A DNA stretch of 64,000 nucleotides, taken from positions 62,001 through 126,000 of the forward strand of contig JALSLK010000071.1 of assembly GCA_026988355.1 (NCBI GenBank), written 5' to 3'. Below the pieces are notes generated by a model. The model did no database searches, was not told the DNA's origin, and saw only the letters and a list, made by a program, of their open reading frames with translations. Both the position numbers and the translations under genes were made by a program. Shown piece after piece: positions 8,054 to 11,156 of the stretch. The stretch is from Flavobacteriaceae bacterium. GTDB taxonomy: Bacteria; Bacteroidota; Bacteroidia; Flavobacteriales; Flavobacteriaceae. The first letter of the stretch is position 1. Every line of letters starts with the position of its first letter.

Positions 8054-10252
8054 TTACTTAATATACTTTTCAAAAAGTTCTTCAAAGTTTTTATTAGATG
8101 GTCTTGTAAAATTAACATCAATCAGTTTTCCTTTTTTATCTATTAATATAAACCTTGGAATAGAACTAATATCATAATTAGATGCAAATTTTCTTGCATC
8201 TTTTAAATGTAAATGCAAAACGGACTTTCCTTTATCTTTTACTTCTGGCAACCATGTATTATATAGTTTATCTGAACTAACTGAAATAAAAACCACTTCT
8301 TCTTTTTTATACTTTAGAGCTTGTTTTTCAAAATAAGGGGATTCATATAAACAAGGGGCACACCAAGTTGCCCAAACATCAATGAATACAACCTTACCTT
8401 TAAAATCTATTAATTGGTGCTCTTTTTTATTTTTATCTAATGCGATAAAATTGGGTGCAATCATTCCTTTTGACAATCTATTTATATTAAAATGCTTTTT
8501 TAAAAGTAACTCTCTATAAGATTTCTTACTAATTGAATTAATGTATCTTTTATTTAATGAGTCTCTTAACTCCTTATTACCTGCTTCTTTTATACTTTTA
8601 TTAAGCTGTTGAAACATCAATCTATCTTTAAACATGCCTTTTTCTAAATTAGAGATAGCATCAAAACATTTTTCATCTTTACTAAGTTCTCTTTTATCTT
8701 TCTTAATTAACTCATCCATTGTATACTCAAAATATTTATTATCTGAAAGCATACTAATATCTGTTGCTATTAAACTGGTATTTAACTCCTTAATTTTGTC
8801 TGCTACAACATATTTTATATCTGGATATAGCGATTTTCTTATTTTTTTATATCTATTCCAATAATTAATATATTTTAAATTTATTCTTTTATTTTCTCTA
8901 TTAATAAAATCTTCTCTAGGTATAATATTATCTATTGTTCTATTACTTTTAAGTTTCATTAATTCTATTTGCCATTTTTCATAAATCATTTTCATATAAA
9001 AGTTAGCATCTTTTATGTCAATATTATTACTTAAATAAGAATCTATCTTATCATATCTAAAACGTCTAAGTGAGTTTTTTTTATTTTCGGCAATTCTATT
9101 TCCCGTTATTTTTAATTCCTCTTTTTTTCCAAACAATTTATATGTAATAAATAAGCTATCCTTACCACCAAAAAATACAGCGGTTTTTTGATATGATTCA
9201 AAATTAATTTGATAATAATCTGGAATTATTTTTTTTTTAATCTCATGGTGAAATTTACCGTCCACAACATCAATTTTAGCAATAGTGTCTAAGGTACCTA
9301 TCTCGTGAATTGAAATAGTTATAATGTTTTTATCTGTCTCAACTATACCGTTAATTATAGTTTTATTGTGCTTTTTTTGGTGTTTAGGCTTAATAACTAT
9401 AGTAATTAAAAGACCTGTAATTAAGAGTACTACAATGAGTTTTATTAATTTTATTTTAGGATTTACAAATGCTGTTAAAAATGTTTTAAAACGATACCAA
9501 TTAAAACCAATATATAATAATCCAATAGCAATTAGTATACTTAAAATATCTGTATATGTAAAAAAATTGCCTAATTCACTTCCTCTTGGATAATCTGAAA
9601 TTTGATTTAACATTGTATATGGATACCAAAATAAATACGCTTTATATTTACTAAGAAGAACTGGTAAAAGCATCATTAAAAAACCTATTAAAATTGGCCA
9701 AATAAAACTTTTTATTTTTACTGAGATTACGTATTGAATAGCTGATATTGATAAACTTAGAATAAAAATTTTAATTCCAATTTTTAAAAATATTCCAAAT
9801 TGAAATTCTTTTACTAAGTAAGGCGAAACGTCAATAATATAAGGAGAAATTGCACTTAACAAAACTCCTAGCAATATAAAAGTCGAAATTGCAATAAGAT
9901 TAGAAATCAAAAGCAATAAAAATTTTGAAAAATAAATTGCTTTTTTTGATGTTGGTTGTGTTTCCATCAAATTCCATCCTTTATTTTTATGGTCTATCTG
10001 TGTAATCTTACTTGCGACAAGTATTATTAATAGCGGAAAGAAAAAACCTAAAAAAGGAGATAATACATTGGATAAATCTTTAGAATATAAATTTTCAGGT
10101 ATGCCAATTTTATCTACCTCAGCATTCATATACATTCTAGATATTAAGTACATTATAGGTATAAAAGCGCCAATAATAATACTTAATACAATAATGCCTG
10201 ATTTCTTTTTCTTTATAAATTCAACCTTTAAGGTTTTAAAAAAATATTTCAT
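8054..10252 (-). CDS. ABC-2 type permease fused to a periplasmic TlpA-like thioredoxin domain
   Basis: A 732-residue fusion. Residues 1-290 form an ABC-2 permease resembling lantibiotic-immunity permeases (MutE/EpiE type), with hydrophobic segments near 18-37, 66-82, 110-134, 154-176, 182-200, 233-250 and a seventh at 268-287. Six is usual; the extra one would put the C-terminus in the periplasm. Residues about 298-390 resemble DUF4369, which precedes many Bacteroidota TlpA proteins; a helical linker follows to about 585. Then comes a thioredoxin fold with active site WCAPC (Cys631, Cys634) and cis-proline 699 (SSIPRF). It lies 7 bases downstream of its ATPase gene. The domains are clear; the joint role is unknown, with redox-linked export or peptide immunity as possibilities. 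Confidence 0.87.
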   Translation of the reverse strand: MKYFFKTLKVEFIKKKKSGIIVLSIIIGAFIPIMYLISRMYMNAEVDKIGIPENLYSKDLSNVLSPFLGFFFPLLIILVASKITQIDHKNKGWNLMETQPTSKKAIYFSKFLLLLISNLIAISTFILLGVLLSAISPYIIDVSPYLVKEFQFGIFLKIGIKIFILSLSISAIQYVISVKIKSFIWPILIGFLMMLLPVLLSKYKAYLFWYPYTMLNQISDYPRGSELGNFFTYTDILSILIAIGLLYIGFNWYRFKTFLTAFVNPKIKLIKLIVVLLITGLLITIVIKPKHQKKHNKTIINGIVETDKNIITISIHEIGTLDTIAKIDVVDGKFHHEIKKKIIPDYYQINFESYQKTAVFFGGKDSLFITYKLFGKKEELKITGNRIAENKKNSLRRFRYDKIDSYLSNNIDIKDANFYMKMIYEKWQIELMKLKSNRTIDNIIPREDFINRENKRINLKYINYWNRYKKIRKSLYPDIKYVVADKIKELNTSLIATDISMLSDNKYFEYTMDELIKKDKRELSKDEKCFDAISNLEKGMFKDRLMFQQLNKSIKEAGNKELRDSLNKRYINSISKKSYRELLLKKHFNINRLSKGMIAPNFIALDKNKKEHQLIDFKGKVVFIDVWATWCAPCLYESPYFEKQALKYKKEEVVFISVSSDKLYNTWLPEVKDKGKSVLHLHLKDARKFASNYDISSIPRFILIDKKGKLIDVNFTRPSNKNFEELFEKYIK

Positions 10253-10259
10253 ACTTTTA

Positions 10260-11156
10260 TTATTTAGTCAAGTTTAAAAACCATTCTTCTAGATTATCTT
10301 CTACGCTCAATTCGTATATAGGAATATCATGTTGCACTAAGAATTTGGCTAATAAAGGTATTTCGTCTTCACTATCTAAATTAACAACAAATTTATTTTC
10401 CTTAATCCATTCAATCGAATTATATTTGTCTTTTAATAATTCCTTTTTAGCTGTACTATTTTTTGTTGTAATATTTAATTTATACTTACTTTCTCTATCA
10501 GATAATTCTTGAATTGTTCCTTCAAATTGAATTTCTCCCTTATTAATTATACCGATATGTGTACACATTTTTTCAATCTCATCTAATAAATGACTCGATA
10601 TAAATATTGTTGTTCCTTTCTCTTGATTTAATTTTACTAATAACTCTCTAATATCATTAATTCCTGAAGGGTCCAAACCATTTACTGGCTCATCTAGAAG
10701 TAACAATTCTGGATCTCCAAGCAATGTCATTGCTATCGCAAGACGCTGCTTCATACCAAGTGAATATCTTTTCACTTTTTGATTCCCATTTTTACGCAAT
10801 CCAACAATTTCTAGAACTTCAAGTATTTTAGTTTCTGGAATATTTTTTAATGTTGTTACACAACGAAGGTTATCAATTCCACTTAAATGAAGATACAAAG
10901 CAGGAGATTCTACTAAGGCTCCAATTTTACTAAACACATTTGGTATTTGTTTTTTTAAAGGCTTTTCAAAAAGCGAAATACCTTCTTTATTGTAAGGTAT
11001 AATTCCTGTAATTAATTGCATTACTGTAGATTTACCTGCGCCATTGGGACCTATAAATCCATATATTGAGCCTTTCGGCACATTAATAGATAAATTTTTT
11101 AGTACATCCGTTTTAGCAGAATATCCAAACGATACATTATCGAGTTTAATTAGCAT
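10260..11156 (-). CDS. ABC transporter ATP-binding protein (bacitracin/lantibiotic-resistance type)
   Basis: The 298-residue ATPase partner of the fused permease. Walker A GPNGAGKS is at 36-43, signature YSLGMKQRL at 131-139, Walker B with Asp155-Glu156, and a switch histidine in ISSHLLDE. The C-terminal 80 residues form the small extra domain common in BcrA-like ATPases. It is the first gene of a two-gene unit; the stop is followed after 7 bases by the permease-thioredoxin start, so the two are surely co-expressed. It should sit at the inner face of the cytoplasmic membrane as a dimer. No two-component system or precursor peptide lies alongside, so the substrate cannot be named. Confidence 0.93.
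   Translation of the reverse strand: MLIKLDNVSFGYSAKTDVLKNLSINVPKGSIYGFIGPNGAGKSTVMQLITGIIPYNKEGISLFEKPLKKQIPNVFSKIGALVESPALYLHLSGIDNLRCVTTLKNIPETKILEVLEIVGLRKNGNQKVKRYSLGMKQRLAIAMTLLGDPELLLLDEPVNGLDPSGINDIRELLVKLNQEKGTTIFISSHLLDEIEKMCTHIGIINKGEIQFEGTIQELSDRESKYKLNITTKNSTAKKELLKDKYNSIEWIKENKFVVNLDSEDEIPLLAKFLVQHDIPIYELSVEDNLEEWFLNLTK

Follow-up and report, generated by a model that had tools for sequence, protein, structure and literature searches.

In several described pathways, ATP-binding cassette (ABC) exporters and periplasmic thioredoxins both take part. Cytochrome c maturation employs the ABC transporter CcmAB and the TlpA-type thioredoxin CcmG in one pathway. In Campylobacter, the ABC transporter FetBCD and the periplasmic thioredoxins FetE and FetF take part together in iron uptake, as set out in the available part of PMC10783030. 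When the parts are separate it is hard to test whether the pump and the redox step handle the same molecule. Here we analysed a locus in which both parts form one chain, found in a Flavobacteriaceae bacterium (assembly GCA_026988355.1, contig JALSLK010000071.1, positions 62,001 to 126,000; this whole stretch of 64,000 nucleotides is referred to as the window). It consists of a gene for an ABC-2 permease fused to a TlpA-type reductase and, next to it, a gene for an ABC ATPase. We are almost certain of this pump-reductase architecture, in which a permease of the type V ABC exporter type and an exported TlpA-type reductase share a single polypeptide.

The fusion is encoded by a single ATG-to-stop frame of 732 amino acids (aa) in the open reading frame listing of the window (8054-10252, minus strand), and the gene for the 298-aa ATPase lies upstream on the same strand across a gap of 7 bases. 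This confirms the original prediction, made from the sequence alone, of an uninterrupted permease-thioredoxin frame with its own ATPase. Pfam placed ABC2_membrane_4 at residues 8-194 (E 1.2e-14) and Redoxin at residues 596-714 (E 2.8e-15), both above cut-off, and ABC2_membrane_4 was matched by 10 of the 11 fusions compared at E ≤ 1. The DUF4369 domain that had been claimed between them was matched at 300-386 below the Pfam cut-off (E 0.12, 13.3 vs 25 bits). The domain is thus less firmly placed than first claimed; eight strands were modelled at 298-384, and 4 of the 11 fused homologues match DUF4369 at E ≤ 1 (best 1.4e-5). The AlphaFold model of the whole fusion, obtained with the 11 sequences (predicted local distance difference test score, pLDDT, 80.7; predicted template modelling score, pTM, 0.67), lays out six helices, a seventh at 266-287, the strands, helices over 402-592 and a terminal thioredoxin fold.

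Long frames of this kind, of at least 730 aa, were present in 67 sampled genomes of two families, namely the window's own genome, G002, G033, G980 and 63 genomes of a second family of the order (genomes and loci are given by our G and L numbers). The fusion proteins of 35 were read whole and the other 32 were counted by frame length; the searches used a loose first pass by which some fusions may be missed. Within the window's family, the full fusion was recovered from 3 of 249 genomes by whole-genome search and from 3 of 397 by a permease profile, which matched six more genomes; the permease is unfused in five of these, and in the sixth (G079) the end of a contig truncates the match. An order-level sample yielded the fusion in 9 of 296 genomes and an unfused permease only in 5 further ones. 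Across a class-level sample of 395 genomes it was confined to the window's own genome, and the 25 other matches comprised 24 that were of unfused size or, in the case of G505, shown to be unfused, its 618-aa frame having resolved into an unfused permease of 258 aa; the remaining match (G767) is truncated where its contig ends. The second family, which may be the Weeksellaceae with Chryseobacterium as its chief genus, carried the fused-kind permease in 64 of 296 genomes, 63 of them in frames of 730-783 aa, besides 36 unfused matches, with both kinds in 15 genomes. The permease profile had no match in the same-genus genomes G224 and G381. The domain search and the homologue survey therefore found the fusion conserved, and two-gene homologues with a junction error were not seen; no split version occurred among the homologues examined, which included 21 of the 38 unfused or cut-off matches fetched with their surroundings. 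Separately, in G1240 (L184) the frame of a fused-kind permease stops at 408 aa, before the thioredoxin domain; it may reflect decay or a sequencing fault and was not counted as intact.

The thioredoxin domain superimposed on 4ka0, a disulfide oxidoreductase of Bacteroides, with Z 21.0 and 1.6 Å over 141 residues, and its fold matches also included FetE (Z 18.0) and CcmG. The thioredoxin fold, the CxxC motif and the cis-proline of the TlpA/ResA type are all found in the fusion. The WCAPC motif with Cys631 and Cys634 and the cis-Pro699 named in the original prediction are exactly where it put them. The CxPC motif is kept in 35/35 complete fusion proteins read whole (sets of 11 and 29, with 5 genomes common to both), and both cysteines, Pro633 and Pro699 are conserved in 11/11 and 29/29. 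Asp625, Trp627 and Trp630 accompany them in 29/29, and Asp625, at what we take to be the place of thioredoxin's buried acid, is also retained in the set of 11. The reductase domain was the slowest-evolving part, with a median nonsynonymous divergence (dN) of 0.027 and a ratio to synonymous divergence (dN/dS) of 0.065, whereas the three remaining parts of the fusion have a dN of 0.055-0.064 and a dN/dS of 0.082-0.090, in a comparison of 23 of 406 pairs (whole-gene dS 0.1-1) that share branches and hence are not independent. These features strongly support the C-terminal domain being a disulfide reductase of the TlpA/ResA type, with reductase activity as its predicted function. A DsbD-type membrane protein (frames of 669-803 aa) was present in all 11 fusion genomes searched. 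The best such match of the window's own genome lies at G000:C71:126604-127239, about 600 bases past the right end of the window. The same genome holds three tandem TlpA-like matches at G000:C89:38866-41373, and in G002 the pair is directly preceded by a further frame, of 858 aa, that is distinct from the fusion and ends in a thioredoxin domain (L097, 5973-8549).

The permease half was modelled on its own with higher confidence (pLDDT 87.4, pTM 0.84), as an N-terminal helix at 2-18 plus six helices, that is, an ABC-2 fold with an N-terminal interfacial helix. Its top structural match was NosY (Z 18.8, root-mean-square deviation 3.0 over 228 residues), followed by ABCG2 (Z 17.4), ABCA4 (Z 17.2) and PmtD (Z 16.4). 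Foldseek gave the permease nothing at E ≤ 0.001, the best match again being NosY (E 0.0035), with CcmB at E 0.068. The fold search listed no LanE/LanG or BcrB structure, which is not counted against kinship with them. The ATPase (ABC_tran, 4.1e-26) has the Walker A, signature, Walker B and H-loop motifs, and Glu83 replaces the usual Gln of its Q-loop. This position is acidic in all 32 ATPases aligned, being Glu in the 21 unfused ones and, among the 11 fused ones, Asp in 7 (L149-L155, second family) and Glu in 4 including that of the window. The two genes are strongly supported by these family traits as a type V (ABC-2) ABC exporter, for which outward transport is predicted from the family. Besides, identity with the gliding transporter GldA/GldF was rejected, as the ATPase reached 173.2 bits with the GldA model against a cut-off of 402.6; three other places in its own genome outscore it with that model, the best at 378.7 bits (partial) and none over the cut-off. 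The PADLOC defence-system models gave the fusion no match at E ≤ 0.01, and those of the ATPase look like general ATPase similarity.

To predict the topology, we looked at the hydrophobic segments and the charges between them. The window protein has seven such segments (19-37, 63-81, 112-130, 154-172, 178-196, 230-248 and 269-287); a crude hydropathy count returned seven in 7 of the 11 fusions, window included, and 5, 6, 6 and 8 in the others, with the last segment (helix 7) present in all 11. Over the 11 sequences the Lys+Arg density is high at the N-terminus (0.25) and in loops 2-3 (0.15) and 6-7 (0.26), and low in loops 1-2 (0.08), 3-4 (0.04) and 5-6 (0.08). Because of these loop charges and the export signals borne by the unfused reductase relatives, the favoured prediction has the N-terminus in the cytoplasm and the C-terminal half with its active site in the periplasm. 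Three observations weigh against it: loop 4-5 has five residues and no Lys or Arg; the 30 residues past helix 7 have a Lys+Arg density of 0.14, matching that of cytoplasmic loop 2-3; and the residues up to 12 positions away from helix 7 show a weak charge contrast (36 inside vs 26 outside). A cytoplasmic active site is not favoured by this charge pattern, noisy as it is, and helix 7 probably carries the redox domain outward, as had been proposed.

The relatives of the two halves suggest how the fusion arose. The 21 unfused permeases aligned (of 38 unfused or cut-off matches) end shortly past helix 6, at a point equivalent to approximately residues 257-260 in the fusion, which bears out the claim of an extra seventh segment, and an ATPase gene adjoins the permease in all 21 of these loci (L156-L176). 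The unfused reductase relatives, of 334-495 aa, have a hydrophobic N-terminal segment in 44/45 and a lipobox-like motif in 35/45 (the best 45 of 104 rows, two of which are one gene), and several of them align with the fusion from about residue 250-285 on. Since the unfused permeases end past helix 6 and the unfused reductases start with an export signal, helix 7 stands at the place of the former signal. In three trees, of permeases, ATPases and reductase halves, the members belonging to fusions came out as a single group apart from the unfused relatives sampled, with supports of 100/100, 100/99 and 100/98, respectively; the trees are midpoint-rooted, and the branch of L098 is long and its composition odd. 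Such single groups fit one fusion event with joint descent of pump and reductase, which is favoured, not proven, by these trees; independent repeated fusions are unsupported, as each of the three trees yields one group. Most simply, the gene of an exported, probably lipoprotein-type reductase would have become attached to the end of the permease gene in a two-gene pump of a common kind. A directly adjacent trio of unfused ATPase, permease and reductase genes was not seen in the 21 unfused loci. A reductase-like gene lies three genes off on the other strand in L161 and a WCxxC protein gene two genes off on the other strand in L158. LytTR response-regulator and/or histidine-kinase genes (Pfam) stand beside the unfused pairs L156, L163, L165, L170 and L176, and frames of similar length, judged by length alone, beside L166-L169. 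In five unfused loci the ATPase gene comes right after a short frame of 64-121 aa (L165 5248-5442, L166 5237-5518, L167 8251-8463, L168 8193-8558 and L176 5090-5407).

Table 1. Features of the fusion gene and its ATPase gene in the window
Feature	Coordinates	Strand	Basis
Fusion gene, 732 aa, ABC-2 permease + periplasmic (predicted) TlpA-type disulfide reductase	8054..10252	-	Frame, Pfam, homologous fusions
Permease domain of type V / ABC-2 fold with six transmembrane helices, residues 1-262	9467..10252	-	Pfam, alignment with unfused permeases, AlphaFold model
Seventh transmembrane helix, residues 269-287, predicted to run from cytoplasm to periplasm, at the export-signal place of unfused reductases	9392..9448	-	Hydropathy, charges, model, alignment
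Beta domain, residues 298-386, DUF4369-like, weak sequence match	9095..9361	-	Pfam E 0.12, homologues, model strands
Helices over residues 402-592, unmatched by Pfam in the window protein	8477..9049	-	Model; aligned in 11/11 fusions
Thioredoxin-fold domain, TlpA/ResA type, residues 596-732	8057..8467	-	Redoxin 2.8e-15; structure match 4ka0
Active-site motif Cys631-Ala-Pro-Cys634	8351..8362	-	Conserved in 35 complete fusions
Pro699, cis-proline position	8156..8158	-	Kept in 11/11 and 29/29 fusions
Cognate ABC ATPase, 298 aa	10260..11156	-	Frame, Pfam, motifs; directly upstream of fusion in 11/11 loci

The ATPase gene, directly upstream of the fusion, is the only neighbour common to all 11 fusion loci, as determined by clustering frames of at least 45 aa over stretches of 14-19 kb (26 kb for the window; less than 5 kb upstream for L155). 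Seven of these loci come from one family and five of the seven are syntenic, so that the independent contexts number fewer than 11. The window pair is flanked on one side by genes for an M48 peptidase, an aromatic amino-acid hydroxylase family protein, a TMEM260-like protein and a polysaccharide deacetylase. On the other side lie a glutamine amidotransferase, a PfkB kinase, SufE and a 469-aa frame with no match, together with S-adenosylhomocysteine hydrolase, phosphopantetheinyl-transferase-like, acetyltransferase and PcrB genes. The direct neighbours elsewhere are YaaA and a LuxR-type regulator (L148), an esterase (L098), a dihydrouridine synthase (L097), a phosphodiesterase (L149), an M13 peptidase and a hydrolase (L150), and an M13 peptidase and a dicarboxylate symporter (L155). 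The M13 peptidase gene stands directly upstream of the pair in both of the last two loci (L150 5665-7761; L155 1785-3860), and the direct neighbour L098:8034-8573 has no Pfam match. Precursor-peptide neighbours, for which the original prediction had suggested a survey, were not found among the neighbours examined, and no lantibiotic, biosynthetic or precursor gene appeared among the 12 scanned window neighbours (one of them with no match) or the direct neighbours identified at the other loci, where direct neighbours were scanned in most cases, excepting L149:10835-11140, and farther genes were not each annotated. Comparison of 352 short frames of 18-60 aa within 1.5 kb produced no family beyond 5 of the 11 loci, and the widest groups fall mainly in the syntenic loci L151-L154. 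The window has a single permease gene, and no second one is common to the 11 loci. Among the direct neighbours identified there was no nosD, nosL, nosZ or other nos gene and no haem-pathway or metal-site gene.

In the second family, gldB and gldC flank the pair in L151-L154 (4 of the 11 loci fetched) and in 25 of the short loci L181-L210, which are the best-scoring 30 of 64; the 25 include the genomes of L151-L154. gldB and gldC are adjacent with no pair between them in 11 of 13 genomes searched; the pair separates them in G869, and in G002 they lie on different contigs. Given this adjacency elsewhere, the pair was inserted in one clade between two genes that otherwise keep together, which hints at an envelope, gliding or secretion role. 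In L149 the pair is about 3 kb from gldB-gldC, and neither gene was found near it in the window, L097, L098, L148, L150 or L155.

As the best explanation of function, tentative and in our estimate somewhat short of an even chance, we propose a type V exporter, driven by ATP, whose tethered reductase works in the periplasm and opens disulfides in the molecule handled or in a client. The pump would be a homodimer, as the single permease gene suggests, and would present two reductase domains in the periplasm, which a DsbD-type protein may recharge from the cytoplasm. ATP binding and hydrolysis would move or extract the substrate where the inner membrane faces the periplasm; candidates are an envelope-active peptide, a lipid-like compound or a client protein. 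During this handling the tethered reductase would open disulfides in the substrate or client, and the fusion would keep this reduction close to the opening of the pump. Sequence supports the parts and the fact that they are inherited together; the side of the membrane, substrate, direction and coupling are inferred, with doubt rising in that order. Several points weigh against this proposal. The direction of transport and homodimerisation are presumed from family membership, and the reductase might act independently of the pump. Because DsbD-type genes are widespread, occurring in 10 of 14 control genomes as well, their presence is weak evidence for the electron supply. No neighbour gene points to a substrate, and the closest solved permease, NosY, belongs to an enzyme-maturing complex, with ABCG2, ABCA and PmtD close behind. 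Moreover, FetE and FetF were concluded to be possible oxidases in vivo in the available part of PMC10783030, so that finding a CxxC domain next to a pump does not by itself imply reduction.

Among other explanations, the fusion may merely anchor a general envelope reductase in the inner membrane and couple its dose to that of the pump, the two handling different molecules. We consider this unlikely, though credible. In its favour, the unfused reductases are signal-bearing and mostly lipoprotein-like and do without a pump domain, and none of the 21 unfused pumps fetched has a reductase gene right next to it. A mere tether might, however, be expected to break up, yet the fusion fits a single origin and persists in 67 genomes of two families, and within the scope of the 21 of 38 matches given above a split version was not seen. 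With a similarly modest chance, the pair could be a maturation machine of the NosFY or Ccm kind, in which an ATP-driven permease positions the reductase on an envelope protein or a metal or cofactor site and export is not needed. The rank of NosY among the permease matches, with CcmB also listed, and the position between gldB and gldC in one large clade agree with it. According to the available part of PMC7558416, the CuZ site of NosZ depends on NosFY with NosD, and the Cu-binding cysteines of cytochrome oxidase subunit II are reduced by TlpA. However, the fold does not single out NosY, since exporters of drugs, lipids and peptides (ABCG2, ABCA4, PmtD) score only 1.4-2.4 Z below it, no metal-site gene was identified among the direct neighbours, and the six loci named above have neither gldB nor gldC near the pair.

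A special case of the proposed exporter, whose likelihood overlaps with it, is a self-protection or resistance pump of the LanFEG/BcrAB kind, the reductase of which disarms disulfide-bonded attacking peptides. In its favour, the best NCBIfam match of the ATPase is the lantibiotic-protection ATPase TIGR03740 (galliderm_ABC; 5.6e-69), below the cut-off at 232.2 vs 309.75 bits, the Q-loop residue is acidic in every ATPase aligned, as in LanF, and some unfused pumps stand beside LytTR or histidine-kinase genes. The window protein, however, scored 22.0 bits with MutG (TIGR03733) against a cut-off of 117.2, MutE and MutG were matched at E ≤ 0.01 by just 3 and 2 of the 11 fusions, and there is one permease gene with no lantibiotic gene or precursor found near the loci examined. 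Lanthionine rings, besides, are thioethers and are not opened by a disulfide reductase. We regard this role as rather doubtful, and of the lantibiotic-immunity-type label given to the permease at the outset only a distant kinship survives, the MutG score, the single permease gene and the lack of a biosynthetic or precursor neighbour in the scanned surroundings being against it. About as probable is a machine in which the permease, set in motion by ATP, gates the tethered thioredoxin domains or drives them onto a client or an exported molecule at the membrane surface, so that periplasmic disulfide chemistry would be coupled directly to ATP hydrolysis; if true, this would be an ATP-powered extracytoplasmic reductase, a class for which we found no described member. 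Least probable among the functional alternatives, we think, is a pump that exports a small thiol or other reductant recharging its own thioredoxin, which would give the periplasm an electron route independent of DsbD. CydDC is a thiol exporter. The authors of the FetABCDEF study also predict that reducing power is relayed from FetBCD via FetE and FetF (PMC10783030, available part). A DsbD-type protein is, however, already present in each of the 11 fusion genomes searched, the permease is not of the CydDC kind, and the sequence gives no pointer to a thiol substrate. That sequencing or assembly joined two separate genes by mistake has next to no probability and is refuted because homologous long frames of the same kind occur in other genomes, 67 in total, 63 of them in another family and 35 read whole.

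Compared with the systems from which its parts are known, the fusion resembles the two-gene ABC-2 pumps of Bacteroidota (L156-L176) in its ATPase family, in the permease up to about residue 258 and in the adjacent ATPase gene, whereas these pumps are without the seventh helix and the reductase and form a separate tree group. The unfused TlpA/ResA-type reductases of Bacteroidota share much of the C-terminal half, the WCxPC motif and the export signal, but have no permease and likewise group separately. With LanFEG and CprABC it has in common the ATPase kinship and the acidic Q-loop residue, which in LanF is Glu instead of Gln. LanFEG, however, has two permease genes (LanE and LanG) with one ATPase, whereas the window pair has one permease and an additional reductase, and no lantibiotic operon was found. 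The LanFEG and related CprABC permeases have six helices, as the fusion permease has, in the available part of PMC5786555. Membership in LanFEG was rejected on the single permease, scores under the MutG and galliderm_ABC cut-offs and the lantibiotic cluster not being found, and the two are considered kin only. The NosFY(D) system offers the best solved match in the fold of NosY, with ABCG2, ABCA4 and PmtD within 3 Z, but no nos gene was identified beside the pair, and NosD is a separate periplasmic protein that is not a thioredoxin.

A described system of this form, of which the original prediction knew none, was not found by us either, and the literature searches aimed at the fusion were narrow (several exact phrases required), so this negative is weak. 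CcmAB and CcmG are separate proteins as opposed to one chain here; CcmG and CcmB are among the fold matches, and no haem-pathway gene was identified beside the pair. The closest working parallel that we came across in print is FetBCD with FetE and FetF, in which an ABC transporter and periplasmic thioredoxins belong to one system, but there they are encoded by separate genes with two permeases in an iron-uptake cluster, and the authors of PMC10783030 regard FetE and FetF as possible oxidases. By contrast with these separate proteins, the fusion makes the coupling of transport and redox chemistry testable by mutants of one gene in a defined two-gene system. The parts of the pump-reductase are thus well known from these systems, and it is their combination in one chain that appears new.

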